Part shown: positions 3,153 through 23,489 of the stretch, one piece after another
Position numbering within the stretch: the stretch's first letter is position 1
Layout of the letters: every line of letters begins with the position of its first letter
Virus record (IMG/VR): IMGVR_UViG_3300023108_000074
Location: 1-36,588 of that record
DNA: 36,588 bases
Source of the DNA: a virus
Strand: one strand, 5' to 3'
Program-made: the position numbers and the translations under genes
Notes under the pieces: generated by a model
What the model saw: only the letters and a program-made list of their open reading frames with translations
Told to the model about the DNA's origin: nothing
Databases searched by the model: none

Positions 3153-3536
3153 TTATTTATCGAGTAGTTTTTTAACCATCTCCTTGAGTTCATCTATTTC
3201 ATTTTGTTGTTCTTTAATTGCTTCAATTAACAACGGAACCATTTTTTCATACTTAACAGTTAAATAATTTTCACCGCTTATGCTATGACGTTCCATTTCT
3301 CCTGTATCGTCATTTACTTCATAACGTGTATCAAACGGAGCGTATGCTACAGCCTGCGGTAATACTTTTTGCACTTCTTGTGCTATAACACCTGCATCTC
3401 TAGTCTTGTTATCTGGTTCAAATCCTAGCTCATCTATAACTGGCTTCCAATCAAAATATAATCCATTTAAAGATTTGACTTTGTCTAAAGCGTTTTCTAT
3501 TGGTGCAAAGTTTTCTTTAAGACGTTCATCTGATGA
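3153..3536 (-). other. S74 intramolecular chaperone auto-processing domain
   Basis: The final 127 codons of the fiber gene encode SSDERLKENF, then GLYFDW, then DAGVIAQEVQKVLP, YLTVKYEKMVPLLIEAIKE and a heptad-like tail. These are the hallmarks of the peptidase S74 domain. In characterised members a Ser-Lys pair in the SDxRLK motif drives self-cleavage after trimer folding. Cleavage here just before SSDERLK is predicted, not shown. Confidence 0.88.
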
Positions 3537-6500: not shown

Positions 6501-9500
6501 GCCATTTGACCTTAAGAAAGTATTTTGTCTTCCAATTTGTAATTCATTTAGTGTAGAAGCAGATTGTGCATATAGTATAGCACCAATAGAATATGTGCCA
6601 ATGCCTGTTCCGCCTCTTGTTACTGGCACTAAGCTAGTCAAGTTTGCGGGGTTTAGGAAGTAAGCACTATCCAAGCTGTCTAATGTGCCGGCATCAACAA
6701 CTCCATCTTTAATGAATACTTCGCCGCTACCATCTGTGTTTACATCAAATTGTGTCTGTAAGAACCTACTTGTTCCTAGTGTAGAAAATGTTCCTAGTGG
6801 ATCATAATCGGCATTAGCAATACCAATGTTAACTGGATCACCGTAAAACTCTCCACTTAAACTAGATCCTGTAAGTGTGATTGGATTGTCTGTTGTCGTT
6901 GCAACTTTCAAACTTTGGACCACAGTAGCATATGCACTGTCACCTCTTAGGAAGCTGTCTGAGTTTGGCACACCACTGGAACCAAGTCTACTTGGAGATA
7001 TTGTTCCAGAAATAATATTTTCTGCGTCAATGTTTGTAACAGCAAGAGTGTTCCAGTTTGCAATCAATCTGCTTGAAGTGTTGATAACACTTTCAACTTG
7101 AACATTGTTAACAATAACCTCTGCACTACCTGTTCCTGTAGTGGTAATGTCTTGCGCATTTGTAACCAAATCGTTGATACTGCTTAATGCGTCTGAACGC
7201 AGTGCATGAAGTGTAAATGAGTTGGTTGTTACCGATCCAACAAAGAACCTTGAGCCACTATCTACTGGTCCACCAGCACCTCCGGTGCTAAACAATTCAT
7301 TTGATGTAGAACCATCTGACAATGACTCGATACGTATTGCATCGCCTGTTGTTAATCCGTGGTTTTCTACAATTACACTGTTGTCAGTAATGTTAATTGT
7401 CTGACGAGTAATATTATGATTGTTGTTAGCAGGCGTGCTTGTAAATTCAACTTGGTTAAGCAGCGCAAATCCTTCATACAATTCGATAGTGTTTGCATCA
7501 ATTACTTTTACATAATAAACTTGTTCGTTTAGCAATCCGCCAATCGGAACATTGCCTAGTGTGTCGTAAAATACAGGATCGCCGTTACCAAAACCGTGGT
7601 TTGTTATTGTTATCCTATATGTAGTATAATTTACAGCACCTCCACCGCTTGTGTCACCTGCTAAAAAGTTGTGTGTAATTACATCATCTTGATTTATATC
7701 TTTTGATGTTGCAACAGCAGTGTTGTCTTCAACAAAGTCTAATGATGATGCACTAGCGACAAATAGTTCACCGCCTAAAATGTTTACATATGCACGTTTT
7801 TCAATAGATGTTACTTCAATTTCAAAACCACTACCTGTGCCACCAACATCGCTAGCATTTACTTCTAGTAAATCACCAACCGCATAGCCGGTGCCACCTC
7901 TTGAAACATCAACATCTGTTACCTGTCCTGCTGTGACTGTGATGTTTGCTTTAGCACCTGTTCCCGATCCTGTTTTGGCTTGTAAAGGCACTGATTCGTA
8001 AACTAAATTTCCTAACACAGGAGTATATCCGCTACCGCCTACGATATTTGCGTTGTCTACGTTTACAGCAATACCGCTGCGGAATTCTGTTACAGCACCT
8101 TGAGCATTACCGTCTGCAGAGGTAACAATAGTTCTAACTGTTCCTGTTGCTGCTGCACTTGCTTTTGTAGGATCAGCACTGTCTACGTTAGTATACGTAA
8201 ATGTTGTAGAACTAGGAACACTCAACACAAGTCCATTTTCGTTGTAAGTTTCATCTGTTGTGTTCAAAATTTGAACTGTATTGCCTACTTGTAAATTGTG
8301 AGCTGCACTGGTAGTTACAGTAGCAACATCGCTGTTACGTTCAGCAAATGTCAAACTACATGTATCATCTACTGTAAACGTATAATTTTGAGTTGGGTCT
8401 AATACCAAGAACTGGCTTGAATTTGAACTACGTAGGAACCAGTTGTCAACAATCTCTGTGCTTGGTCCTTTTGAGTTAATACTTACACCGGAATCTACGC
8501 CATTGACAAATATATTTCCTGAGCTTGTCTCCCATGGGTCGCCAGTTGAATCATCTGTGTCGTCCCATGCACCTCCAATTGTTACAACAATTACATTTCC
8601 GCTTAAAGCATAATTACCTTTTGCATATCCTATGGCACCTGTTACACCAGGTTGTGTAATAGTATCACCGTCGGATGCATTGAATGTATTAGCTGATAAT
8701 GTAAGTTCGACTTGCTCATAGTTTTCTGTAGCAATATCACCAGCTTTCAAATCAATAGCAGGAATATCATCTACTTGTTCTAATCTTGATTGGTAACCAT
8801 TTGTGTTTGTGTTTGTAAACTGTCTTGTGGCAGGAATCAAATCAGGGTTGAGCTGACCGTTAACGTTCAACTGAACAATAGCACCTGGAACAGCCGCAGT
8901 AGATACAGTTTTGTCAACAAAGCCGCCTAGCCTGTTTGAAATAAAGCTTCTAACTGCTAACTGTGTTGACAATCTGCCATCACTTGGTCCACCAATTTCA
9001 TCGTCGCCCAAGTTAACACTGGTTGAAATTTCTTCAATAGCAACATCTGACAAGCTAAGTCTCAAAGCATCAAGTTCGTCCACCTGCACTTTGTTTCTAA
9101 ATGTAATGTTACCAGTTCTGTTGAACGCTGTAATAAAGTCACCAACTTTAAAGTCACCAAGTTCGTTTGTTCCTGATGAATAAACACGTCCTGGTAATTC
9201 TTCAAACTGTTCATATTCTGATCTTGTGTTACCACCGTTTTGTGGTAGAGCGTTATAGTCTGTTCCTGAACCTGCGTATTCCCAAGTATGTGCAGATGAG
9301 TTGACAACAGAAGGTCTGTGGAACCAGCACTGTGTTTCTGGCAAGTTAGGCAAGTTTGTCAAGCTAGAACTACCGTCAGTAGCAGTTACACTAAATGTTG
9401 CAGTGCCTAATCCTAACTTTGTAGCTGCTTCGTTTACGCCAATTGTTGTATTAGGCGAAGCAGCATGATCTGAATCGATTGTGCTGGTTTCGTCAAATTG

Positions 9501-12500
9501 AATACGTAACAAGCTCTGTCCAACCGCAACTTCTTCAATACTGACAATAAGTCTACGAATTCTTGGTTCCCAGCTGTAAACAATAGCACTGTTATTATTA
9601 GAACCAGTTGTGCCTGTGATAGCCCTTCCTGGAACAAATTCAAATGTTTCTGAACCTGATTCAAGTTCAAGTGTTTGATATGTTGTATGCGAGCTTAAAA
9701 TTTCTTCTACAAAAAATTCAATGACGTCTGAGAAAAACTTGTGTGTTCCTGTGCTTGCAGCAATAATGTTAACATTAAAATCCAAACTATCGTCAAACGC
9801 TAGTGTAAATTCATCTTCGCTTAACAGTTTGATGTAGTATTGCTGTTCGTCGTCAAGTCCTTGAATTACTGCATTACCATTTGGATCGTAAATAACTTTT
9901 TGACCGTTTGTAAATCCGTGTCCTGTAATTGTAAATATATTTGTTGTTGCATTTACTTCTGTAGCAGCATTGAAAGTAGTCTCAGTTGGTGTTGTTTTGA
10001 AGTTGTTTGTTACATCGCCTTCTGAACTAACTTCAGTTGGATCTGGTAAATCATCAGGATCGTTTATAATAGTTGTAACAATATCAAATCTAGATCCTAC
10101 AAAGTTTTGCACTGCTGCTGATAAACTTGAAATATATGTTATTGCTTCTGTTTTAGCATAATCTATTGCTGCAATTGTTTGTAATTCTTGCCCACTAATA
10201 CTAATACGTGAACTGTCTTGCAAGTTTTGGGTGTAGTAGGCTAAACCAGCACTACGTGAATATCTGTTACCAGTATCCCATGTATCTTTTGCAGCCGCTT
10301 CGACAATAAGTTGTGTGTCTCTGTTACACTTTGATTCATCATATGTAAATCCATACCAAATGTTAGCCTGTATCTGTTCGTTTATATACTGTGTAACATT
10401 TTGTGATATGTTTATTCTGCCTTCTTCGTCTAGTTCATAAAACGCAGTTTGTAAACTTGCAGATGTCCACGAAATATCTGGTTCTATTACTGTTACTGGC
10501 GTTGCGCCTACACTGCCAATAAAATCTCTTATTTCCTGTATTCTGTTTTCTGCATATGTAGCAGCGCCAGCACTACCTGCATCTGCACTTGTGTCTTGTG
10601 TTTCTGCATTTCCTGCACTGACACTTACTGCTGTTTCAACAATAACCTGTGATACAACTTCTTTAAGTCTGCCATATGCAGCTACAGTTTCTTCTTGTTG
10701 TCCTGTTCCATATTGTGCAGTGCCGTCAATAAAGTAAGCATCAGCTGCAATTTTTGTTTGTAAATTACCGCCATATGTCAAATCATATAACAATGCATCA
10801 ACAATTAACTTACTATCTCTTAAACACTTTGCTTCGTTGTAAACAAATCCAATAGCAAACGGTTCAATGTCACCTGCAATTTGTGTATTAATCCACGCAT
10901 TTACTTCAGCAGCAATAAAATCTTTGTTGTTGATCAATTGTGTTACAGCATTAGCAAATCCGCTGTCACTAGCATTGTCACTTCCGCCTGTTGGCGTTGG
11001 TCTTGAATATGCTGCTGCAACACTGTCACCTGGCACAGTATTAGCATCACCATTGGTAATAATATCTATTATTTCATCCCATAGAGCATTTGCTCTAGAA
11101 GTTGCTGTAGCATCAGTGATATAATTTGCGGTAAATGTTTTTGCTTGGCCAAATGCAGCAATGTGTTGATCTTTTTGATCTGCAAAGTTTGAGAAGCTAC
11201 CGCTAAAGTATCTGAGTGCAGCACTTACACTTCTATGATTACTATCAAATAAAAGGTCATATCTTATTGCGTCTAATAATAATTGGACATCTCTACGACA
11301 TTTAGCTTCATTGTATGTGAATCCGGCCCATATACTTGGTGTTGCTGCTGCAATCTGGTTGTTGATATATGTTACAGTATCGTCAGCAATAAGATCTTTA
11401 TTCAAAAGTAATAAATCATGCGCTGTTTTATTATCTGATTCTCTAAAACGTAGAACAAATTCTTCAACAGGTGCATCACGATTGATACCTACAATACTAA
11501 CTGTTTGCTTACCTTCACTGCTACCAGTTGCTGTAACAAAACTTCTGTCAAATTGGAATGCCTTAGGTGAGAAACCGCTACTTCTTAGTGCATATAAACC
11601 AAAGTTTGTAGCAGAGTTGGTAATTGAACAATATCCACCTGATTGACAGTAAACACCGTTGAGTAGGAAGATTTCAAAACAAGACACGATCTGTGCATAT
11701 GCATCGTTGGTTAGGCGCCATGCTGTTCCGCCAAATGACAAAATAGTAAAGGCGTTAGCAACCATTGACTTACCTTGTTCAGGTATAGCACCAATTACTG
11801 GATTTTCAGCTTCGATACCAAACAAAGGAACGTTGGGCGATTCAACTTTACTACCGTCAATCTTTGCACCGTTCATACCTAAGAATGAAATAATCGAACA
11901 GTTCTGTATATAGGGCGAAGTAGTAATTGTTGGTCTAGTGTCAGGTAAGTTTGTATAATCTGCACGGTCTGTAATAACTGTATCAAACGGATCATCAAAT
12001 GCCACAGCATAGTCTGCTGTAATAGTCGGAACATTGTTACTATCAATGCCGTCACGGAATGTAAATTCACCAAAATAACATGCGTTACGAACACGTAGCA
12101 TGTCCAAGTTAGCATTTGCAGGACGGATAATACAACCACGCAAACCGTCACCTTTGATAACTGTGTTATCTGGAACAATAACTGGGTTTTGTTCTGTGTA
12201 GTCACCAACCGCAACTTTGATGTTAACACGTTTAAAGTTAATTGTGCCGTCTGCATTGTAAACCAACCCGGAAGCAATTTGGCAGGCTCTCTTAACAGTT
12301 TTTACCGGAGCGCTCTGTCCATCATTGGCGTCATCACCTTGTTCTTGCGAAACATAAACTACGTTACCACCAAAAATGTCTGAGTCTTGGAAAAATAATT
12401 GTCCGTTGCCGTCAGTGGCTAAAATTTGACCTACAGAACCACGTGACGGAGGCAATGTCATTGTGTAACCTGAGTCTAGAACATCTGGTGCTTTCAGTCC

Positions 12501-12848
12501 TACACCATCATCTCCAGATGCTGTAAGTTCTTTAAATGTGACAGTTTTTGCATTTTCAATATCAAGATCGTTGAACAAGTTCATACCTGCTGCTGTAAAT
12601 TGAGCAGTGTCTTGTTCGTTTACCCTAATATTAATTTCTGCTGCTGCGCTATCTCCTTGATCGTCGATGGTAATTTCTGTATCGCCGTCAAATATACGGC
12701 GTGTTATGTCTTGCACAGTTGAATCATCACGCAGTAAGAATACTTTACCGTCTGCTGTGTTGATTGCTAATTCACCTGAATCTAATTGAGATACTAGGGG
12801 TTGTTTACCCGCGACCGCACTTCGCTTGTGTCTAATCTTTGTTGCCAT
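3153..12848 (-). CDS. Giant tail fiber with C-terminal S74 chaperone/protease domain, 3231 aa
   Basis: I place the start at the ATG at 12846-12848: AGGAGG lies 9 bases before it, whereas the TTG two codons upstream is only 3 bases from it. The N-terminus (GELAINTADGKVFLL, residues ~25-40) is a common fiber opening. A NVVYVSQ...GDDANDG stretch begins a beta-helix-like section (residues ~165-480). Three KCxRDxxxIxDA modules follow (~505-860). Then come fiber repeats, including GSGLTxL units. The last 127 residues begin SSDERLKENF and form the intramolecular chaperone of the endosialidase/S74 family, which in known members trimerises the fiber and cuts itself off before the Ser of this motif. 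The end is a coiled coil. It is probably a distal fiber for host contact. Confidence 0.9.
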   Translation of the reverse strand: MATKIRHKRSAVAGKQPLVSQLDSGELAINTADGKVFLLRDDSTVQDITRRIFDGDTEITIDDQGDSAAAEINIRVNEQDTAQFTAAGMNLFNDLDIENAKTVTFKELTASGDDGVGLKAPDVLDSGYTMTLPPSRGSVGQILATDGNGQLFFQDSDIFGGNVVYVSQEQGDDANDGQSAPVKTVKRACQIASGLVYNADGTINFKRVNIKVAVGDYTEQNPVIVPDNTVIKGDGLRGCIIRPANANLDMLRVRNACYFGEFTFRDGIDSNNVPTITADYAVAFDDPFDTVITDRADYTNLPDTRPTITTSPYIQNCSIISFLGMNGAKIDGSKVESPNVPLFGIEAENPVIGAIPEQGKSMVANAFTILSFGGTAWRLTNDAYAQIVSCFEIFLLNGVYCQSGGYCSITNSATNFGLYALRSSGFSPKAFQFDRSFVTATGSSEGKQTVSIVGINRDAPVEEFVLRFRESDNKTAHDLLLLNKDLIADDTVTYINNQIAAATPSIWAGFTYNEAKCRRDVQLLLDAIRYDLLFDSNHRSVSAALRYFSGSFSNFADQKDQHIAAFGQAKTFTANYITDATATSRANALWDEIIDIITNGDANTVPGDSVAAAYSRPTPTGGSDNASDSGFANAVTQLINNKDFIAAEVNAWINTQIAGDIEPFAIGFVYNEAKCLRDSKLIVDALLYDLTYGGNLQTKIAADAYFIDGTAQYGTGQQEETVAAYGRLKEVVSQVIVETAVSVSAGNAETQDTSADAGSAGAATYAENRIQEIRDFIGSVGATPVTVIEPDISWTSASLQTAFYELDEEGRINISQNVTQYINEQIQANIWYGFTYDESKCNRDTQLIVEAAAKDTWDTGNRYSRSAGLAYYTQNLQDSSRISISGQELQTIAAIDYAKTEAITYISSLSAAVQNFVGSRFDIVTTIINDPDDLPDPTEVSSEGDVTNNFKTTPTETTFNAATEVNATTNIFTITGHGFTNGQKVIYDPNGNAVIQGLDDEQQYYIKLLSEDEFTLAFDDSLDFNVNIIAASTGTHKFFSDVIEFFVEEILSSHTTYQTLELESGSETFEFVPGRAITGTTGSNNNSAIVYSWEPRIRRLIVSIEEVAVGQSLLRIQFDETSTIDSDHAASPNTTIGVNEAATKLGLGTATFSVTATDGSSSLTNLPNLPETQCWFHRPSVVNSSAHTWEYAGSGTDYNALPQNGGNTRSEYEQFEELPGRVYSSGTNELGDFKVGDFITAFNRTGNITFRNKVQVDELDALRLSLSDVAIEEISTSVNLGDDEIGGPSDGRLSTQLAVRSFISNRLGGFVDKTVSTAAVPGAIVQLNVNGQLNPDLIPATRQFTNTNTNGYQSRLEQVDDIPAIDLKAGDIATENYEQVELTLSANTFNASDGDTITQPGVTGAIGYAKGNYALSGNVIVVTIGGAWDDTDDSTGDPWETSSGNIFVNGVDSGVSINSKGPSTEIVDNWFLRSSNSSQFLVLDPTQNYTFTVDDTCSLTFAERNSDVATVTTSAAHNLQVGNTVQILNTTDETYNENGLVLSVPSSTTFTYTNVDSADPTKASAAATGTVRTIVTSADGNAQGAVTEFRSGIAVNVDNANIVGGSGYTPVLGNLVYESVPLQAKTGSGTGAKANITVTAGQVTDVDVSRGGTGYAVGDLLEVNASDVGGTGSGFEIEVTSIEKRAYVNILGGELFVASASSLDFVEDNTAVATSKDINQDDVITHNFLAGDTSGGGAVNYTTYRITITNHGFGNGDPVFYDTLGNVPIGGLLNEQVYYVKVIDANTIELYEGFALLNQVEFTSTPANNNHNITRQTINITDNSVIVENHGLTTGDAIRIESLSDGSTSNELFSTGGAGGPVDSGSRFFVGSVTTNSFTLHALRSDALSSINDLVTNAQDITTTGTGSAEVIVNNVQVESVINTSSRLIANWNTLAVTNIDAENIISGTISPSRLGSSGVPNSDSFLRGDSAYATVVQSLKVATTTDNPITLTGSSLSGEFYGDPVNIGIANADYDPLGTFSTLGTSRFLQTQFDVNTDGSGEVFIKDGVVDAGTLDSLDSAYFLNPANLTSLVPVTRGGTGIGTYSIGAILYAQSASTLNELQIGRQNTFLRSNGTEPEWGTALDLAEGLDVGSASLTSSSTGAGRLYNTNVTSLEIGGDATNISIGSASGSRNLFTFIASYEATISRDVVVNLETINQNAADVAQNGDKEIVMADTTGILAGMIVTGSASIPANTTVSGVTDDAIYLSVATTGSILSGTTLAFTYTPYTLGINPGDRINIGSSGVTNLDGTWPVSGATDTATSFTIRTDDLVTADPLDVPAGTATINGNLILRNESIVIGQAETSATPNDGIIKGVDGLGTNVEGGDLTIQGGLGTGSATGGDVVISTGDIGSSGDTKNTSQVRIRVNAGGVTEVTGYTNFSSSGAIKLPAGNTAARTSPPAAGDARFNTETVGFEGYDGTAWAPLGGVRDGDQDTYIIAETSAGADNDDLDFYTANVQRLQIDQDGDFRFGDSINKVIMDWATGNTQIAGDLTVTGDLQIDGTTTTINSTTLQVDDKNIELGTVASPTDATANGGGITLKGATDHTITWSNANDSWDFSEHVNAAANKEFRIANTSVLNATTLGANIINSSLQTSAMTTVGVLDSGSISSGFGNIDIGTSVFTGSGSGLTTLNASQLTSGTVSGSRLGGNQTMSGIKTFSDTSSATSTTTGAIRVSGGMGVAGALYAGSLNTANGSGIDNLNASNLDSGTVPNGRITGIYSNLTGTGALNQGSITSGFGNINIGTSTFTGNGSGLTNVDAETLDGIDSTGFVAVGGDVMTGQLQFNNTSTASSNSIRFGPGPAGSDDAHIEWMGGSNAGKLRISTSDDTGTEAIEFGDYDNTDRGGTFTQWLNMNRTTFTWQGNTIWHAGNDGPGSGLNADLFDNLGSGSFLRSDTNDSFSGTLSGSGAINISGNITGNVFTGDGSGLTGISADDANTLDGLDSTAFLRSNADNDSASGRYSTSGTKIEAGRGTGSVAMTTNDGYGNANLCFNHDSGVPDINGSSARIESSVDSSTQTMTFEVGNSTSNGVAVSLNTKMTITTGSVAVTGNLTATGEVTAYSSDERLKENFAPIENALDKVKSLNGLYFDWKPVIDELGFEPDNKTRDAGVIAQEVQKVLPQAVAYAPFDTRYEVNDDTGEMERHSISGENYLTVKYEKMVPLLIEAIKEQQNEIDELKEMVKKLLDK
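3895..4890 (-). repeat. GSGLTxL fiber repeats, about 4 copies
   Basis: Within the fiber C-terminal third, units with the pattern FTGxGSGLTNLxAxxLxSGT recur. Their cores lie near 3940, 4465, 4630 and 4835. Between them are DTSSATSTTTGAIRVSGG-like and SxFLRSDxxDS-like stretches. These are typical beta-structured shaft repeats of marine phage fibers. Confidence 0.7.
10240..11345 (-). repeat. Three KCxRD modules in the 3231-aa fiber
   Basis: Copies of the pattern FTYNEAKCxRDxxLIxDAxxYD occur near 11290, 10815 and 10325, spaced about 475-490 bases. The same module occurs ten times in the neighbouring 2223-residue protein, so the two fibers share an expanded domain family. Confidence 0.85.
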
Positions 12849-12926
12849 TTGCAACTGCCTCCTATTTAGGTCTGGGTCAGGTCTATGTAGACGCCCGTTT
12901 TTATACGATAGAAATCGTTATAATGT

Positions 12927-12942: not shown

Positions 12943-12971
12943 AAAAGTGGCAGCTTTTTAGAAGCTACCAC
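12943..12971 (-). terminator. Intrinsic terminator overlapping the stop of the 2223-aa gene
   Basis: A 10-bp stem (12947-12956 with 12962-12971, one G-U pair on the minus strand) has a 5-base loop and is followed by TTTTA on the minus strand. The TAA stop at 12958-12960 falls within the loop and the descending arm, so termination and stop codon overlap. Confidence 0.85.
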
Positions 12972-15900
12972 CATCAATTGTATCAGTCCATATTGGAGTG
13001 CTATCGGCATCACTTGTTACAGTGAGTATTTGAAAACTGTCTGTTGCATCAGCGCTACCTGCTGCTGCTGTAACTTTTAAAGGGTTAGCAGTGTCACCGT
13101 ATAATATACCATCTTCAGTAAATGTGCTTACACCTGTTCCGCCGTATTGCACTTCTAAATCATTGTTGGTTAATATTAAATTGCCATCAACTGTAACATC
13201 TATATCAAATGTTGTAGAACCGTTTACTGTTCCACCTGTTAATTTATTTAAATATCTGTTCTCAACATACTGTGCAACAGCTAATTGTGTAGGCGCTGTA
13301 TTTGCATCTTGTGCGCCATTACTTGCTAATAGTGCAGGATTGTTGCTTATTTCTTTTAATTCTACACCAACCGGAACACCTTCTCTTATTAGTGGACCAA
13401 TGCTTGTAAGTCCACTTAGATCTAGTTGGTTCGCATTAAGTGTTATACTACCGTCTAGTGCGTTTACTCCAAAGAAGTTACCAACTCTAAAGTTACCAAT
13501 TTGGTCAACTGTTCCGCCTGCAAATATTTTACCTTGGTTTGATTCTTTGATTTCTTCTTCAGGTATTGCAGTTCCGCCAAAGAATGGAAGTGCATTGTAT
13601 GTTATCCCTGCACCAACATATTCAAACGCATGTCCTGATGTAGATACGGTTGATACGTTGTATAACGATCCTTGCTTGTCTGTTGTTACACTTATTAATC
13701 CTGGGAAAATATTGATGTTTGCAATACCACCAAATGTCAAGTTTAGATCTGCAATAGCTGTATCAACAATAGTGTCTTCTGCTGCAAGTATTGTATTTCT
13801 GTCTGCTAAAAACGCACTGCTGCCTAATGCATAATTATGATCAAGTTCAGTCCATCCTGTGACATATTCTTGTTGCACTGCAAGACCAACTCTGTCTACT
13901 AGCAGCTTCAAGGTATCACCACCTATTGTTGTTCCATCAGGAATACTAACATCTTGTGTAAGTGGGTTATTGTAACTAGGTGTGATTGGTTCGTTGTTTG
14001 CAACTTTTTGCATTACATTTGCCAAATGGTAATATGTATATGCAGTTACTAGGACTTGATCAGCATTTCCTACTTTTGCTGCACCTAATATAGCACCATT
14101 ATAGTATGCCTCGCCTGCTCTTCGTGTTTGCTTATTACCGCCATACATCATATCGTATAATGCACTATCTATAATATAACCTGTATCTCTTTGACACTTG
14201 TCTACATTATATGAAAAACCAATTAGATTATCAGTAATGTAAGTAATTACAGCGTCTTGTGTTGTTGCCTTAGAAGCTAACAATTCAGATGCAACCAATT
14301 TTGTTCCTTCAGATAGCCAACTAAAGTCTGGCAATACTTGTGAATACTCAGGACCAACAGTGCCGCCTGTATTGATAGCATTTATAACAAGATCAAACAA
14401 GTCATCTGCAATAGTTTCCTCTACTGTAGTTCCGTAATTGCCTCCTAAGAACTGAGATTCATTATTTCCTGCTGTTGGAGTAACTGCTATACCCTTAATA
14501 CATTCACCAGCAACTTGCTTCAAGTGAGTAAATGCTGCAACAGTTTGAGACACCTGACTAGGTGGAATGTATTGTGCTGCACCTAAGAAGTAAGCGTTTG
14601 TTGCAACTAATGTTGCAAAGTTACCTGTGTATAATGCATCATGCACTACTGCATCAACAATGTAACCTACATCTCTCTCACATTTGTCTTCGTCGTAACT
14701 AAATCCGTTGTATGTTGTAGAAATAAAGCCGATTGTATCTGTAATAATAGTAGATTTTTCAGCATTTAAATTATCAATTGCAGTTTTTACACCTGCATCT
14801 GTTGATGTTAAATCTGGCAGTGTCTTTGTAGGAAGGTTGTCAACACCGTTAACAATTACATCTTGGAACGTTTGCAACAATGATTGAGCTTTGGTAACTT
14901 CTGTTGCACTAGCTGCTCCGGCACTTACATCTTGCGTTTCGTCTGTTTGTTCAGGATTAGCTACTGCAACATCTAATAACACATCGCCTAATAGTGTAGC
15001 AACATACGCTAACGCATTTGCTGTTTCGGTTTGCTGTCCTGCAACTTGATTTGATGTTCCAACATAATAACTTCTTGCTGCTTCTACACTTGCACTGTTA
15101 CCACCATAAAGTATATCGTATGTCAATGCATCAACAATATATTTTGTGTCTCTATTGCATTTATCGCTGTTAAATGTAAAGCTCTGGAAAGAATCACTAA
15201 TAAATGTTGTTACATCTGTTTGTAAAGTTGATTTATTACCTTTTATTGTGTTGTAGCCTTGCTGATAAACAACATCAGCCCAAAGCACACTTGGTAATTG
15301 TTCTGCTGGCAAACTTGTTAAATCACCATCTGAAATAACTTGCCTTATTACCTGAACTAAGCCTGATACTTCATCTGCTTCTGTAGAACTTGCATTTCCT
15401 TCTACCGGATTAGATTGTAATATTGTTGTTGCAGGAGAAGGAACAACATTTGCACCAATAACAATATCTCCTACAATATCTGCTAATCGTTCATACGCTG
15501 CGGCTGTTGCTGTTTCTTCCGATGCATCGCCTAGTTGTCCTACACCATCTACAAAGTAACTATTTGCTACAGTGCGTGTTGCAAAGTTACCGCCGTATAA
15601 AACATCGTGGCATAATGCATCAACAATGTATCCTACATCTCTTTCACATTTTGTTTGATCATAAGTTAAAGCTGGAAAGTTGTTGGCAATCCATGAAACA
15701 ATTTCATCTATAATGAAATTTTTATTCTGAATAAGTTGTGCTTTAGCTGCAACTTTGTCTGAGCTTCCTCCTGTAGGAGATGGAAATACTAACGGATCTG
15801 CTGCTGTATCTGTGCTAACTACACCGTTTTCCAAAATGTCAAGTATTTCGTTAAAACCTGCAATAACTCTAGGTTCAGCAGCAGATGTAAATCCTAATAA

Positions 15901-18900
15901 AACAGTTTCGTCACGCAAATACTCAATTGCTGCTTTGGTTTGTAGCAATTGCCCATCTTGCACAACACTGCTACTTGCTCTTTGATATGCAAGACCAGCT
16001 GTAACACTGTTGTAATTTGTTCCAAGTGCAGTATCTAGAGCTACTGCATCTAACATTAAACCCACATCTCTTTCACATTTAGCACTATCGTATGTAAAGT
16101 TTACATAATTGTTGTCAATAAATGCAACTGCTTCTGCTGCTAAAAATGCTCTGTTGTTTTGTAACTGTAATGCTGCTTCTTGTGCTGCCGCTGTTGCAAC
16201 AGCATTTGCGGTTGGAAATACTAGTGGATCAGCAGCATCATCTGTGCTGGTATTACCGTTTTGTATAATATCAACAACTTCGTCAAATGCACCTTCTACT
16301 CTAGTTTGCGCTGTAGCGTCTCCTGCAGTGGCAGTGCTTGCTTCTCCTTTGGCAAAGTTAATTGCACCTACTGTTTGTGTTTGTTGATCGCTTTGAACAT
16401 AAGCACTGTTTGCACGTTGGTATGAAAGTCCAGCTGTTACTTGATTATAATTTGTGCCAAACGCTGCATCAAAATATGCTGCATCAATGATTAATCCTGT
16501 ATCTCTTTCGCATTTTGCTTGGTCGTAAACAAAGTAATTGTCATTTATATATGCAGTAGTTTCTGCTTTTAAGAAATCTCTGTTGCCAACTAATTGATCT
16601 CTTGTATAAACCAATTCGTTACTTGCTGGTCCAGGCACAGTGTATTCGGTGCCCTCGCTTGGCAACTGGTCATATTGTATGAGATTAATTACATCTTCCC
16701 ACAGCGCATCTACCCTGTTTGCAAAAGTTGCATCTCTTGCTGCTGCTAATTTGCTCAGTCTTTTCGCTTCTAATAGTGCTATTATAGTTGCTGGCTTTTG
16801 TTCTACGTCAAGATATGCAGTATTGGCTCTGTGATATGCAAGACCTGCTGTTATACTATTATGATTAGTTTCTAATTGCGCATCAATATAAACTGCGTCA
16901 ATTATATAACCAACATCTCTTTTACATTTATCTACATTATATGTTAATGTAGGATAAGTTGCAACTATATCTGCTTCTGCATTAGAAATTATAGAAGTGA
17001 CTTGTCCTAGTATTGTGTTTGCTGCATCTTGTTGTCCTTGCGGCTCTTGTTCAAATAATGGATATGTTTTTGTTGCAGGCAGTCTGCTTAGAGTTAAATT
17101 TTCAATTACATCTTGTGTATTGAAAAGAAGTGCATCTAACGTAGCTGATTCGCTTTGGGTTGCATTAAGTTGTGAAAAGTCTTGCGATTCTGCATTGCCT
17201 GTTGTCTTTGTAACAAATTGCCCTCTTACAACTCTGCCGATTACAAAACGCATTCTTGCAAATGCATCTACCATTGTTTGTAACTCGGTATCTAATAGTG
17301 CTGTGAAGTCAAAATTATTGTAGTAATATTTTGTTTCTTGCACCAATGCACTGTCACCGCCATACAAAATATCAAAAGTTAGTGCATCTACAATTCGTTC
17401 GAAGTCTAATTCAAATTGTGCTTGGTCAAATGTAAATGATGGATTATCATTTTGTATGAATGCTATAAATTCAGCTACCAAAAAGTCTTTGTTTGCAATT
17501 AATTGATCCTTAGCATCTTTTGGATTGTATGTGCCAGAAGCTGCTGCATGATTTGGAAAGTCAATTACAATAGCACTGCTGTCGCCGTCATCAGTAATAT
17601 TTACAAACGTATTCATTGCTTCAGTAACACGATCTAACGAAGTAGAATCTGCTTGAACTTGAGCTAAACTTTCTAATGCATTTTGAATATGCTTGAAACT
17701 GTTAATATATAAATCTTTAAATCTAGGACGGATTTCTATTTCTTGTCCTAATCTCACAACATGCTGATTACTACCAATAGCAACATCCATTGCTACACCT
17801 TTAATAAGAGTTTCCATATCTTCGGCATATTGTGCTTGGTTGTAACTTAATTCTGTGAATTGATCATTGATATATGCAGTGATTTCTTCAATAATAAAAT
17901 CTCTGTTGTCTAATATATTGTCTTTGGCTTGTCGTATGCCTGGATCAATTTCACTTAAATCGTTAAGGACTAAATCACTTCCAGCTTCTGGAATAACACT
18001 ACTGTCGCCTGCATTCAACGTGCTTGTTATTATATTGAATCTAGAATCAATTTCGTCTTTCATAGCCTGATTAGTAATTTCGGCTTTCATTAAATCTCTA
18101 GTTGCTTCTAGTGCATAAACAGTAGGCGCTAACTGGTTGTTAAGAACTTTTGTTGCTGTAGCACGTAAATAACTGGTTGCTGCTGCTTGTGATTGGTATG
18201 TTGTTCCTAAAACAACATCGCCTGTTACGGCATCAATGATTCTTCTTGTATCTCTTCTACACACTTCCTCATCGTAATTAAACGGTGCGCTAATAATTTC
18301 CGAACCAGTAATGTAATAATAGTTTGCATCATCTTGAAATTTTATAATACTACCTGTTGCAGGTTTGTCTCGCAAACTGTTTATTTGTATCACACTATTA
18401 GTTTGCAGATTTACAACGCCTTGTGCGTCAACAGTTGGGCCGCCACCTGTAAATGTAATAGAAGGAACTCTAGTATATCCACTACCATTGTTTACAATTG
18501 TAACGCCACTTACTTTGCCTGTTGTAGCATCTATACCTGCGGTTCCTGTTGCTGTTACGCCACCTGCGCCGTCTGGTGCTTCAATTGTTACCGTTGGAGC
18601 AGAAGTATAACCGGCACCTGCATTTTGCACTGTAACACTAGCCACACTAGAGAAGTAATCTTGAACTGGTTTTGCATTTGTATATGCTACAGGATAGAAC
18701 CCGTCTGCAACAATGCCTTCCAAACCAAAGTCACTTACTGAGTTGGAGATACTGAGGTAACCACCATTTGTTGTTTTGAATCCTGTTGAACAGAAAACTG
18801 TAAAACAACTAACAATTTGTGTATATCCAAAGTTATCAATCCAGAAGCCTATACCGCCCTGTGCAATCTGTGTAAATGCGTCAGCAACAAAACTGAATAC

Positions 18901-19629
18901 AAGAGATGCTGGATCATAAGCGTCACCGTCGACATACATACCACCGCCGCCGCCGGTGTCATTTATTTGTTTATCAAATGGTAAATCTGGATAATCTTCA
19001 ACTTGCAGCGGCCTTGCGCTAGGTTCGATTCCTTCTATCTGCACTGTTTCAAAAGGTATAAATTCTGTTCCATCATTAAGCCAAGGACCATTCATGTTTG
19101 TGCAGTTTTGAACATAAGGTGAGGTTGTGCAAAGTGTGCCTGGACGTATTTCTGCACACCAACCTGGATATCTTAAACCGCGGAATGTCAACTGGTATAG
19201 ATAACACCCGTTGCCCATGTAAAAAATTGTTTGTGTGTTATTTTTTGGGAATACTCGTGTATTACGCAATTCCCCTTGCCCGGTAACTGTAACAAAATCA
19301 GGTAGCACAATAGGATTTTCTTCGTAGTAATCCCCTGGTGCAACAATAATTGTTGTTCCTGATTGAGCTACTTCTACAGCACCTTTAATTGTCCTTTTAG
19401 ATCCATATTTGCCTTCGCTGCGTCCGTCATTTGCATCGTTACCATCTTGACTTACATACAAGACATCGGTTGTTCGTGGCCCTGTAGCATCTCCGGATAT
19501 GGTAACGTTTCCATCAACAATTACATTTCCGCTCGGAGGGGTAATTTCGATGTTGCCGTCAGCAGTAAGAATTAAACTGCCGTCTCCAACCTTTCTCTCA
19601 TGTATGGTTTGTCTCTTAAAAAACTTCAT
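12958..19629 (-). CDS. Giant virion/fiber protein with ten KCxRD modules, 2223 aa
   Basis: The ATG directly follows the stop of the 110-residue gene (TAAATG) with GGAAG upstream. Residues ~55-330 open with DVLYVSQDGNDANDG and look like a pectin-lyase-type beta-helix. Residues ~445-1860 carry ten copies of a 140-165-residue module with the core YDxxKCERDVGYIVDAxxxD. The C-terminal ~250 residues match the middle of the 3231-residue fiber (HxFEYVGAGITYNALP, GNFRVGNFF, STFTEDGILYGD). There is no S74 domain. Proteins of this architecture are annotated as virion structural proteins in T4-like marine phages. It is probably a fiber or baseplate-attached adhesin; exact location is unknown. Confidence 0.85.
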   Translation of the reverse strand: MKFFKRQTIHERKVGDGSLILTADGNIEITPPSGNVIVDGNVTISGDATGPRTTDVLYVSQDGNDANDGRSEGKYGSKRTIKGAVEVAQSGTTIIVAPGDYYEENPIVLPDFVTVTGQGELRNTRVFPKNNTQTIFYMGNGCYLYQLTFRGLRYPGWCAEIRPGTLCTTSPYVQNCTNMNGPWLNDGTEFIPFETVQIEGIEPSARPLQVEDYPDLPFDKQINDTGGGGGMYVDGDAYDPASLVFSFVADAFTQIAQGGIGFWIDNFGYTQIVSCFTVFCSTGFKTTNGGYLSISNSVSDFGLEGIVADGFYPVAYTNAKPVQDYFSSVASVTVQNAGAGYTSAPTVTIEAPDGAGGVTATGTAGIDATTGKVSGVTIVNNGSGYTRVPSITFTGGGPTVDAQGVVNLQTNSVIQINSLRDKPATGSIIKFQDDANYYYITGSEIISAPFNYDEEVCRRDTRRIIDAVTGDVVLGTTYQSQAAATSYLRATATKVLNNQLAPTVYALEATRDLMKAEITNQAMKDEIDSRFNIITSTLNAGDSSVIPEAGSDLVLNDLSEIDPGIRQAKDNILDNRDFIIEEITAYINDQFTELSYNQAQYAEDMETLIKGVAMDVAIGSNQHVVRLGQEIEIRPRFKDLYINSFKHIQNALESLAQVQADSTSLDRVTEAMNTFVNITDDGDSSAIVIDFPNHAAASGTYNPKDAKDQLIANKDFLVAEFIAFIQNDNPSFTFDQAQFELDFERIVDALTFDILYGGDSALVQETKYYYNNFDFTALLDTELQTMVDAFARMRFVIGRVVRGQFVTKTTGNAESQDFSQLNATQSESATLDALLFNTQDVIENLTLSRLPATKTYPLFEQEPQGQQDAANTILGQVTSIISNAEADIVATYPTLTYNVDKCKRDVGYIIDAVYIDAQLETNHNSITAGLAYHRANTAYLDVEQKPATIIALLEAKRLSKLAAARDATFANRVDALWEDVINLIQYDQLPSEGTEYTVPGPASNELVYTRDQLVGNRDFLKAETTAYINDNYFVYDQAKCERDTGLIIDAAYFDAAFGTNYNQVTAGLSYQRANSAYVQSDQQTQTVGAINFAKGEASTATAGDATAQTRVEGAFDEVVDIIQNGNTSTDDAADPLVFPTANAVATAAAQEAALQLQNNRAFLAAEAVAFIDNNYVNFTYDSAKCERDVGLMLDAVALDTALGTNYNSVTAGLAYQRASSSVVQDGQLLQTKAAIEYLRDETVLLGFTSAAEPRVIAGFNEILDILENGVVSTDTAADPLVFPSPTGGSSDKVAAKAQLIQNKNFIIDEIVSWIANNFPALTYDQTKCERDVGYIVDALCHDVLYGGNFATRTVANSYFVDGVGQLGDASEETATAAAYERLADIVGDIVIGANVVPSPATTILQSNPVEGNASSTEADEVSGLVQVIRQVISDGDLTSLPAEQLPSVLWADVVYQQGYNTIKGNKSTLQTDVTTFISDSFQSFTFNSDKCNRDTKYIVDALTYDILYGGNSASVEAARSYYVGTSNQVAGQQTETANALAYVATLLGDVLLDVAVANPEQTDETQDVSAGAASATEVTKAQSLLQTFQDVIVNGVDNLPTKTLPDLTSTDAGVKTAIDNLNAEKSTIITDTIGFISTTYNGFSYDEDKCERDVGYIVDAVVHDALYTGNFATLVATNAYFLGAAQYIPPSQVSQTVAAFTHLKQVAGECIKGIAVTPTAGNNESQFLGGNYGTTVEETIADDLFDLVINAINTGGTVGPEYSQVLPDFSWLSEGTKLVASELLASKATTQDAVITYITDNLIGFSYNVDKCQRDTGYIIDSALYDMMYGGNKQTRRAGEAYYNGAILGAAKVGNADQVLVTAYTYYHLANVMQKVANNEPITPSYNNPLTQDVSIPDGTTIGGDTLKLLVDRVGLAVQQEYVTGWTELDHNYALGSSAFLADRNTILAAEDTIVDTAIADLNLTFGGIANINIFPGLISVTTDKQGSLYNVSTVSTSGHAFEYVGAGITYNALPFFGGTAIPEEEIKESNQGKIFAGGTVDQIGNFRVGNFFGVNALDGSITLNANQLDLSGLTSIGPLIREGVPVGVELKEISNNPALLASNGAQDANTAPTQLAVAQYVENRYLNKLTGGTVNGSTTFDIDVTVDGNLILTNNDLEVQYGGTGVSTFTEDGILYGDTANPLKVTAAAGSADATDSFQILTVTSDADSTPIWTDTIDGGSF
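14100..18310 (-). repeat. Ten KCxRD modules in the 2223-aa protein
   Basis: Module cores lie near 14190, 14672, 15150, 15640, 16068, 16500, 16918, 17410, 17825 and 18255, spaced 415-490 bases. The three central copies (16068, 16500, 16918) share a NxxxxTAGLxYxRA tail and are most alike. The copies near 17410 and 17825 have lost the Cys and Arg (AQFELDFE and AQYAEDME). Each unit ends with a LxxNKxFLxxEx helix before the next core. Confidence 0.9.
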
Positions 19630-21197: not shown

Positions 21198-21626
21198 TTA
21201 TTGTGCAGGTAATGCTACGGCTAATGTAGTTGCTGGATTAGTTCCTGTTTCTCTTGCTTCTGGAACGTTACCTACGCCGTATACAGCATTGAATTCTGTT
21301 CCGCCTGCTTCTAGTTGCACAGTTCTATTGCGTAACTTGGTTACTTGATAAGTTGTAGAATCTGTTCCGTAAGCATCGATTGTAAATTCACCTGCTACAA
21401 GAGCTTCGCCGCCACCTGTGCCTGCTTTGTTAGCTAGTGTTAGAATTTCGTCAGCACTTGGATCGCCTGCATTTGAATCTAGGCGGACAACATATTTGCC
21501 GTTGCCTGCTTGTCTTACAATATGTGCTGCTGTTGTTGCTTCTGCGCCGCCTGTAAAAAAGTGGCGTGTTACTGCGATACGACCTGTGCCGTATCCTATT
21601 TTATCTGCATTGATTGGACGTCCCAT
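21198..21626 (-). CDS. Virion structural protein, 142 aa
   Basis: A 142-residue protein beginning MGRPINADKIGYGTGRIAVTRHFF, with AGGAG 6 bases upstream. It contains a Gly-rich stretch (NKAGTGGGEALVAGEF) followed by beta strands. The MGRPxNxxKxxG opening is common in small structural proteins of T4-like marine phages. It is the first gene of the operon 142-403-110-2223 and is preceded by a clear late promoter box. There is no catalytic motif. Function beyond virion association is unknown. Confidence 0.75.
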   Translation of the reverse strand: MGRPINADKIGYGTGRIAVTRHFFTGGAEATTAAHIVRQAGNGKYVVRLDSNAGDPSADEILTLANKAGTGGGEALVAGEFTIDAYGTDSTTYQVTKLRNRTVQLEAGGTEFNAVYGVGNVPEARETGTNPATTLAVALPAQ

Positions 21627-21706
21627 TTGTTTCTCCTTTATTGACGTTCTAGGTCTACGCGGTGGGTCCGCATAAGTTTGCCTTAAGGCATTCTATTAGA
21701 CACAAG

Positions 21707-21714
21707 TATTTATC
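21707..21714 (-). promoter_or_regulatory. Late promoter box GATAAATA for the fiber operon
   Basis: The minus strand reads GATAAATA about 80 bases before the 142-residue gene and about 30 bases after the terminator of the candidate RNA. It is identical to the box before the 3231-residue fiber. Both leaders are about 75 bases and contain GTAGACCT-like elements. Confidence 0.7.
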
Positions 21715-21743: not shown

Positions 21744-21776
21744 CAAAAAAAGGCCTGCAATTATGTTGCAGACCTT
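21744..21776 (-). terminator. Strong intrinsic terminator closing the candidate RNA
   Basis: An 11-bp stem (21750-21760 with 21766-21776) with a 5-base loop is followed on the minus strand by a run of T. One pair is G-U on the minus strand but A-C on the plus strand, so the hairpin is best formed in minus-strand RNA. No gene ends within 250 bases upstream of it, which argues for a non-coding transcript. Confidence 0.88.
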
Positions 21777-21993
21777 TCTATATAATTTTGATAGGTTGGA
21801 TTAAGGATTACCAACAATCGCCTTTGTAGATCCTGTCTAATAAAGCGAAGCCTAGCATCGGATAGTTACTTCCAAAATACGCATCTTCATGTCTCCACAA
21901 TCATGCGCTGCCACTACAGCTACTAGCCAAGTTACTGCCTCTACTCAACAGCGTTTCCTTGCACTATCTAACTCGGACCGTCGTCTTTGTTAT
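21744..21993 (-). ncRNA. Candidate free-standing non-coding RNA, ~250 nt
   Basis: The stretch between the cold-shock-like gene and the terminator has no credible reading frame, but it has a sigma-70-like promoter at its 5' side and a strong terminator at its 3' side. Inside are several helices on the minus strand: GCUG/CAGC around 21906-21919, CGCAU/AUGCG around 21880-21907, UAGA/UCUA near 21830, and a long-range GAUAGU/ACUAUC pair. I cannot assign it to tmRNA, 6S, SRP or RNase P RNA: the conserved boxes of these are absent. Boundaries are approximate. Confidence 0.6.
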
Positions 21994-21999
21994 GTTCTT

Positions 22000-22027
22000 A
22001 ATATAACATATACAAAACAAAAGTCAA
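22000..22027 (-). promoter_or_regulatory. Sigma-70-like promoter for the candidate RNA
   Basis: On the minus strand TTGACT (22022-22027) and TATATT (22000-22005) are separated by 16 bases. This is a host-type promoter, unlike the NATAAATA boxes used before structural genes, so the RNA would be made early or constitutively. It starts just after the stop of the cold-shock-like gene. Confidence 0.55.
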
Positions 22028-22035
22028 CCATTTTT

Positions 22036-22230
22036 TTATATTTTTTTGATATTTTGTGCATATTTTTTGCCATTAACTTCTTTTTCATCATACTCAACAC
22101 TATCGCCAAGTTTGCATTCAAAGTCTTTGGTCTCAAACAGAACATCTATTAAATTGGTTTTCCATTCTTTTGGTCTGATTACACTGAATTTTCTTTTTGA
22201 ATTATATTTGTAAATTGTTCCAATTGGCAT
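22036..22230 (-). CDS. Cold-shock-domain-like small protein, 64 aa
   Basis: I choose the ATG at 22228-22230: GGAG lies 8 bases before it, while the ATG ten codons upstream abuts the gp23 terminator. The 64-residue product has the spacing of a cold-shock OB fold: GTIYKYNSKRKFSVI (like GxVKWFNxxKGFGFI), then DVLFE, LGDSVEYDEK and YAQNI near the end. The second aromatic RNA-binding motif is degenerate. It probably binds single-stranded nucleic acid and may act as an RNA chaperone; this is inference from the fold. It lies between the gp23 terminator and a candidate non-coding RNA. Confidence 0.65.
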   Translation of the reverse strand: MPIGTIYKYNSKRKFSVIRPKEWKTNLIDVLFETKDFECKLGDSVEYDEKEVNGKKYAQNIKKI

Positions 22231-22260
22231 TGTTATATCTCCACTAGAACTACTTACCAT

Positions 22261-22287
22261 AAAAATAGGCCCCGTAGGGCCTATTTT
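22261..22287 (-). terminator. Strong intrinsic terminator after gp23
   Basis: A perfect 11-bp stem (22262-22272 with 22277-22287; minus strand AAAATAGGCCC/GGGCCTATTTT) closes a TACG tetraloop and runs into T residues. It is 20 bases past the gp23 stop and should isolate the head operon from the cassette downstream. Confidence 0.9.
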
Positions 22288-22307: not shown

Positions 22308-23489
22308 TTAGCTGAATGAAACGTTTCCGTTTGTGATATCAACTTTGCCTAGGTAGTCAGCTGCGTTACCAAGTGATGACGCAGTGTTTGTTAGTTCAAC
22401 ATAACCGTAACGTGTCATGAACGATACAGTTGGTTCGAATGTTGAAGGATCTAGAACAACACCTGAGCTCATTAGCGGGATGTATGGGCAGTAGAATGCC
22501 GCTGCATCTGATTCGCTTGAACCTTTGTATCCGATTAGAACTGCTTCACCGTCGCCTGAGTATGTGTTTACATAAACTTTCATAGCGTTGTTTAGTGTTC
22601 CAACCATCTTGGTGTTAGTTGGTGCTTCAAATGTGCCCTCTGTTGTGCGAGCAAATGCTGAAGTTGTAGCTGACTGAAGAATTGTTAGCGCGAATGGGCT
22701 AACAACTGCCCAGTTACCAGCACCACGGCGTGTGCGCTGTGCGATCTGGTTTGACACTCTGTTGATTTGAACTGCAAGTGCTGCGTGTTCGTCACCAACG
22801 AATGTTGCTGTTCCTGAAACTGCTGCCTGATCGTAAGTTTCACTTGCAGTTCCTGCTAGTGAGCTTAGTGAACCAAGAACTTCTTGGTCGATTTCAGCAG
22901 TAATTTCTTGTGCTAGAGCAGCCATGATCTCTGCTTCAACGTCGATGCCGTGCTGTGACTGTGCGTCTTGAGCAGCTTCAAATGTCCAGCGAGCTGATAG
23001 CTTTCTGGTTTTTGCTTCGACAGTTTGCTTCAAGATCTGGATGCTTAACTTACGTCCAGCTTGGCCTTCAAGAGCTGCTGTTGCTGCTGCTTTACCGGCT
23101 GTTCCGTCACCTGAATATGCTTCAGCAATTTTGAATGGGCTTAGTGCTTCATCACCTGCTGTTACATCGTTGTCTGTTCCAGTAGCGTTGTTTGTTTCAC
23201 CGTAACGCACACGTAGAGTGTGAATTTGGCCAACTGGACCAGTCATTGGTTGCACACCAACTAGTTCGTTTGCAATAACTGTTGGCATTACACGTCTGAT
23301 CACTGGTAGGATCACACGGTTTAAAGTTGCAATGTTACCTGCTGAAGTAGCACCTGCTGTTGCAGTCTCAGCCAAATACTTGCGAGTATTCTCAAGTGTA
23401 GTAGCCATAACTGCTTTCTTGGTGCCACCTAGGCCTTCAAGAAGTGCTGACTTGGTATCATTCCAACGGCTTTCTAATAGTTCTGACAT
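22308..23489 (-). CDS. gp23: Major capsid protein gp23
   Basis: A 393-residue protein with the T4 capsid signature: NRVILPVIRRVMPTVIANEL followed by VGVQPMTGPVGQIHTLRVRY (residues ~57-96). The region is the one targeted by gp23 diversity primers. The C-terminus carries the conserved FMTRYGYVEL stretch. It is clearly shorter than T4 gp23 (521 residues). LxE sites at Glu18 and Glu41 are candidate gp21 cleavage points in the N-terminal propeptide. AAGGAG precedes the ATG by 7 bases, and the gene follows gp22 with a 10-base gap, as in T4. It forms the hexameric shell of the head. Confidence 0.96.
   Translation of the reverse strand: MSELLESRWNDTKSALLEGLGGTKKAVMATTLENTRKYLAETATAGATSAGNIATLNRVILPVIRRVMPTVIANELVGVQPMTGPVGQIHTLRVRYGETNNATGTDNDVTAGDEALSPFKIAEAYSGDGTAGKAAATAALEGQAGRKLSIQILKQTVEAKTRKLSARWTFEAAQDAQSQHGIDVEAEIMAALAQEITAEIDQEVLGSLSSLAGTASETYDQAAVSGTATFVGDEHAALAVQINRVSNQIAQRTRRGAGNWAVVSPFALTILQSATTSAFARTTEGTFEAPTNTKMVGTLNNAMKVYVNTYSGDGEAVLIGYKGSSESDAAAFYCPYIPLMSSGVVLDPSTFEPTVSFMTRYGYVELTNTASSLGNAADYLGKVDITNGNVSFS

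Follow-up and report, generated by a model that had tools for sequence, protein, structure and literature searches.

A stretch of about 250 nucleotides behind the major capsid protein gene of a T4-like marine phage is, as judged from its sequence, a real RNA gene and a divergent relative of the Rfam family manA. We consider it probable that this stretch and the gene before it form a cassette made up of a free-standing manA-type non-coding RNA gene and the gene of an accessory RNA-binding protein. The parts of this reading differ in strength. That the RNA is a self-contained transcript is very likely on the sequence evidence; action of the RNA in trans is the more probable mode; and a joint action of the 64-residue protein with the RNA has a little under an even chance. 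The RNA family is known, and its arrangement and candidate partner are new.

Organisation of the locus

The window, by which we mean the whole 36,588-nucleotide (36.6-kb) virus record analysed, derives from a T4-like phage whose portal, prohead protease and gp23 genes lie on the minus strand. Its gp23 is closest to those of jumbo phages such as 2.275.O, GAP32 and 121Q (66-70% identity). Read along the minus strand, gp23 is followed in order by a hairpin terminator, the 64-residue open reading frame (ORF), a promoter, the RNA, a second terminator, a late box, a structured leader and a 142-residue gene, with the following coordinates and supporting evidence.

22308-23489, minus strand: gp23 major capsid protein gene, upstream neighbour of the cassette (Pfam Gp23, E 1.2e-99)
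22261-22287, minus strand: hairpin terminator 3' of gp23 (sequence; matched stem changes in relatives)
22036-22230, minus strand: gene of the 64-residue cold-shock-fold protein, in a 74-residue ORF reaching 22260 (alignments, profile matches, structure prediction)
22000-22027, minus strand: sigma-70-type promoter of the RNA, TTGACT-16-TATATT (scan and conservation)
21744-21995, minus strand: predicted RNA transcript of about 250 nt (promoter, conserved block, terminator)
21785-21987, minus strand: manA-like structured RNA core (RF01745 over its full length, 35.8 bits; covariation)
21744-21776, minus strand: intrinsic terminator of the RNA (folding, relatives)
21706-21713, minus strand: T4-type late box ATAAATAC ahead of the next gene (conserved in relatives)
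21624-21692, minus strand: freshwater-2-like leader of the next gene (RF02980, 46.4 bits)
21198-21626, minus strand: 142-residue gene downstream of the RNA, function unassigned (ORF)

The 142-residue gene has no match in Pfam or PHROG, and distant blastn and tblastn searches of annotated phages with the cassette and its protein returned no match. The window contains no tRNA or tmRNA. Downstream of the cassette are two very long minus-strand ORFs, at 3153-12854 (3233 residues) and 12958-19629 (2223 residues).

Identity and boundaries of the RNA

A default-threshold Rfam scan of the window reported nothing, and the two structured RNAs appeared only in E-value mode. In this mode, 21785-21987 matches manA (RF01745) over its whole length with 35.8 bits (E 1.5e-7), below the curated cut-off of 55.2 bits. 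Relatives that share the 18 nt at its 5' end exactly score 59.0, 58, 58 and 55.4 bits and, because its subgroup straddles the cut-off in this way, we refer to the window RNA as manA-like. The match of the next gene's leader to freshwater-2 (RF02980) is likewise below its cut-off (46.4 versus 49.9 bits). Since both scores fall short of the curated thresholds, homology was tested independently.

The window RNA keeps 45 of the 54 base pairs of Rfam manA, about 20 of which have both partners exchanged; GGGAG/CUCCC, the closing helix of Rfam manA, reads GAUAG/CUAUC here, for instance. The 5' GACG-loop hairpin and the 3' hairpin of manA are also present. A covariance model built from cyanophage-type manA copies only, R1, recovers the window-group RNAs at full length with E-values of 4e-6 to 1e-4 in 448 kb. 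Covariance-model alignments were used because MAFFT misplaced the middle of the RNA across groups. In a joint alignment of 50 sequences, standard pairs fill 92.3% of pair cells and double changes occur at 32 of 42 pairs. The covariation score of this alignment is 0.392, against 0.118 for shuffled and 0.03-0.08 for slid controls, and the window group alone gives double changes at 30 of 42 pairs and a score of 0.274 against 0.100 shuffled; alignments fitted to a model favour its structure, but these margins are nonetheless large. The secondary structure of manA is therefore conserved in the window RNA with covariation support. No minus-strand ORF of 50 or more residues lies within 21744-21989, and an earlier note on this DNA, made from the letters alone, was right to treat the stretch as non-coding. 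That reading missed the kinship of the RNA with manA and of the following leader with freshwater-2. Thr_leader, STnc30, SraG and similar weak Rfam matches were rejected as terminator or chance matches.

The 5' boundary is marked by the sigma-70-type promoter. The pattern TTGACN-(15-17)-TATAWT occurs once in the window, at 22027-22000, where 0.33 occurrences are expected. A scan with the RNA 5'-end motif (ACATAACAAAGACGACGG), which is unbiased by any protein, yielded 42 non-redundant loci with enough upstream sequence, and the promoter is present at 41 of them with a spacer of 16 or 17. Among relatives the boxes are invariant, the spacer sequence varies, and the -10 box always stands 4 nt from the conserved 5' end of the RNA. 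The RNA start near 21993 that the earlier note predicted would fit this promoter.

At the 3' boundary, the distal terminator (AAAGGTCTGCAACATAATTGCAGGCCTTTTTTT, minus strand) has a predicted stability of about -17 kcal/mol. For 12 of 14 non-redundant relatives, folding with our own script places a terminator within 130 nt 3' of the RNA, where 1.2 are expected from 10 shuffles each; a looser pattern finds one after the RNA in 25 of 33 loci. The two arms of the stem change in step among relatives (GGTCTGC/GCAGGCC, GGTCTATCAC/GTGGTAGGCC). The proximal hairpin, GGCCCTACGGGGCC followed by TATTTTT, recurs 3' of gp23 in relatives and shows a matched stem change in L037 (GGCGCTACGGCGCC). A terminator scan of this region alone is not above chance (9 versus 6.3 expected), so the terminator calls are based on this comparative evidence; the compensating stems bear out the earlier claim that terminators bound the cassette at both ends.

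In 29 of 33 loci, a late box precedes the next gene. The proposal that the neighbouring genes use such boxes is only partly borne out: this copy, ATAAATAC, is conserved in relatives, but in the window as a whole late boxes are no more frequent than chance. The leader that follows is a full-length freshwater-2 match just before the start codon, with AAAGGAG; its setting differs from that of freshwater-2, at the start of a predicted late transcript that directly follows a free-standing RNA gene. The freshwater-2 match in the record of L089 reaches 69.9 bits, and leaders of this kind occur in 19 of 22 related viral records. Thus, in the window and in most relatives, the RNA is separated by a terminator and a late box from the gene whose 5' untranslated region the cis-regulatory classification of manA would have it occupy. 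Because the RNA has its own promoter and terminator, and the next gene its own late box and leader, manA looks here like a self-contained transcript. At L180 (1736-1870, on the same contig as L209), a window-type RNA that lacks its 3' half and terminator is joined to the late box, through either a deletion or an assembly error.

The 64-residue protein and its linkage to the RNA

The protein start was assigned to the ATG at 22230, which follows GGAG; the 74-residue ORF opens at 22260 without a Shine-Dalgarno sequence, and the same methionine is usable as a start in most relatives. The protein scores 13.8 bits against the cold-shock domain profile (PF00313), for which the Pfam cut-off is 27 bits, and matches are weak in all six aligned family members (best E 0.0027). 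The best PDB profile match is the cold-shock-like protein 2lss (E 0.0027). An AlphaFold model (pLDDT 79, pTM 0.61) was submitted to Foldseek, and the best matches are all cold-shock domains, with probability 1.00 and TM scores of 0.67-0.72. We conclude from the predicted structure that the protein is a divergent five-stranded cold-shock fold, in keeping with the OB-fold-like protein noted earlier. It shares the five strands with CspA and CspB, from which it differs in its sub-threshold Pfam score, in the replacement of aromatic RNA-contact positions and in being tied to one RNA gene. In alignments of the RNP1 and RNP2 contacts, the first RNP1 phenylalanine is kept in close members and several aromatic contacts are replaced; divergent members have lost more of these positions than close ones.

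A search with the protein only gave 40 loci, and blastn finds the window-type RNA directly after the protein gene in 38 of them, although the proteins differ down to about 37% identity. A 39th, L193, has in this position a sequence that resembles the RNA but diverges from it, in which promoter, closing helix and terminator can be made out by eye; model R1 gives it no score. Approached from the RNA, the protein gene is present 34-55 nt upstream at 22 of the 42 non-redundant loci and absent at the other 20. The contigs behind these counts are fragments. Seven of 14 long contigs (56-236 kb) encode the protein, always 34-55 nt from the single RNA and nowhere else. The sequence between gp23 and the protein gene varies and other ORFs enter there, but not between protein and RNA. 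On the gp23 tree, presence of the protein is clustered and needs at least four changes, from which it follows that the RNA persisted through gains or losses of the protein.

The RNA does not need the protein, since 20 of its 42 loci lack it, and an obligate pair is rejected on this count. Its presence at only some RNA loci had at first made the protein look like mere cargo, a view revised in the light of the one-way linkage in the protein-first search: the protein seems, from these gene neighbourhoods, to be tied to the RNA, and the RNA not to the protein. The paired unit proposed earlier is accordingly upheld in one direction only, whereas other parts of that reading, a structured RNA transcribed on its own, a plausible RNA-binding neighbour and a host-type promoter amid late genes, are supported by the sequence comparison. 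Protein genes without the RNA, beside an unconserved RNA region, had been named as evidence against it; what we find is the opposite, 38 of 40 with the RNA and strong covariation. It is possible that the linkage stems from shared descent inside one phage group.

manA in other settings and the function of the cassette

In the literature manA is counted among the cis-regulatory elements, as a candidate riboswitch (PMC2864571); it is also treated as cis-regulatory elsewhere (PMC9964418), and a 2025 review still enters it as cis (PMC12197685). We found no expression data for manA in the literature searched. As in the window group, manA belongs to T4-like marine phages and is found once per contig or genome, exactly once in each of seven isolate records searched whole. 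In its catalogued form it leads directly into a gene, where the window RNA leads into a terminator and a separate late box, and the window-type RNA is often preceded by the cold-shock-fold gene. Of 55 cyanophage-type copies, 44 also have the promoter at the 5' end, often with the -35 box inside the hairpin of the terminator before it. Such a fused terminator-promoter (GAGGGTGCTTGACACCCTCTTTTTTTATGCTATAAT) lies just upstream of manA in L032, L033, L046 and isolates P-SSM2, P-RSM4 and S-SSM5, where the -35 box TTGACA falls in the loop and the 3' arm of the hairpin that ends the preceding gene. What follows the cyanophage-type copies differs: a tRNA at a distance of 10-12 nt, a late box, a terminator or a gene. 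In many, a gene begins directly behind the RNA, as expected of a leader; these genes are often gp32-like or metabolic. The copies of an intermediate group have tRNAs as neighbours, which they either precede or closely follow. In isolates manA is just 3' of gp23 in five cases, and elsewhere it precedes other genes, gp32, talC and purL among them. A single set of cis-regulated genes does not easily account for such varied settings; a leader function is still conceivable for those copies that directly precede genes.

P-HM2 carries manA at 4771-4969. Annotated hypothetical ORFs that overlap manA in P-HM2 (4849-5023, L143), S-SSM5 (SSSM5_127, L152) and P-SSM4 (PSSM4_169.1, L149) are probably not genes. 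The jumbo phages nearest by gp23 (121Q, GAP32, 2.275.O, Phosso) contain no manA. A chromosomal contig of the bacterium Ruegeria lacuscaerulensis (L154, 1498-1693) holds a copy above the Rfam cut-off, at 60.5 bits, near a helicase-like ORF. Clear manA was present in one of 298 bacterial genomes of that family, so it is not a general host RNA there; the copy perhaps lies on a mobile or prophage segment. Directly 3' of manA in L038 and L102, a tmRNA-like, possibly permuted, sequence seems recognisable by eye, and ARAGORN detected no tmRNA in the clipped context. A Y RNA-like (YrlA) match below cut-off (L140, 849-958) lies within a large tRNA array of a Bacilli metagenome-assembled genome.

We favour a mechanism in which host sigma-70 polymerase would transcribe the RNA early in infection, the timing being suggested by the promoter type. 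The sequence comparison shows the layout for such a transcript: a host-type promoter of its own, the conserved manA fold closed by the helix between its 5' and 3' ends, and a terminator of its own. The resulting stable RNA of about 250 nt may then act in trans, with an RNA of the host or the phage or else an RNA-handling machine as its target, and not as a switch for the gene behind it. The protein would probably be produced by read-through from the gp23 transcript and may bind or remodel the RNA in those phages that carry its gene. A phage RNA gene of similar length is known in the CfrI RNA of the T4-like marine cyanophage S-PM2, which is expressed, about 225 nt long and antisense to psbA (PMC12197685, PMC5931967). 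The window RNA, known here from its sequence, is antisense to no gene and has a complex conserved fold.

It is unlikely that manA acts here as a cis-acting riboswitch or attenuator, with the terminator as expression platform and a ligand allowing read-through into the freshwater-2 leader and the 142-residue gene. Aptamer, terminator and gene do stand in the classic order, the published classification points the same way, and many cyanophage copies directly precede genes. Nevertheless, the terminator and the closing helix are predicted by thermodynamic folding to form simultaneously, and the same folding gave no support for an attenuator, that is, for an alternative fold coupling the aptamer to the terminator or to a ribosome site. 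The terminator arms differ between relatives while the 3' part of the RNA stays constant, which leaves no matched antiterminator; moreover, a separate late box stands before the next gene, and manA in other phages adjoins tRNAs or terminators. A role as passive insulator or 3'-end element between the strong gp23 unit and the next late unit is very improbable: the RNA does lie between terminators and a late box and is often 3' of gp23, in five cyanophage isolates as elsewhere, but an insulator needs neither a promoter nor a 200-nt covarying fold, and copies also occur far from gp23 and among tRNAs.

The protein is harder to place. That its gene is unrelated cargo, kept beside the RNA only through a shared locus in one phage lineage, is a serious contender, if rather less than an even bet. 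All carriers fall in one gp23 group, presence of the gene is clustered on the gp23 tree (four changes), and nearly half of the RNA loci do without the gene. Against this, adjacency has persisted through the divergence of the protein, insertions spare the interval between protein and RNA, the protein is found nowhere else on long contigs, and its fold is of the nucleic-acid-binding kind. In its broadest form, the free-standing reading would remove manA from the riboswitches altogether: T4-like phages would carry it as a trans-acting RNA gene, with one copy per genome and early transcription from a host-type promoter, and in one marine group the RNA would be joined in a ribonucleoprotein by a cold-shock-fold protein dedicated to it and existing only beside it; we put this forward tentatively, as about a one-in-three proposition.

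manA has been on record since 2010 as a probable cis-acting riboswitch whose ligand is unknown. The copies with their own start and stop, and those among tRNAs, argue that the search for a ligand, and for a gene under its control, may be misdirected, and a protein gene seen only beside the RNA provides a first concrete candidate partner for manA. Overall, our analysis suggests that manA, catalogued as a leader that controls a gene, functions in these phages as an RNA standing on its own.
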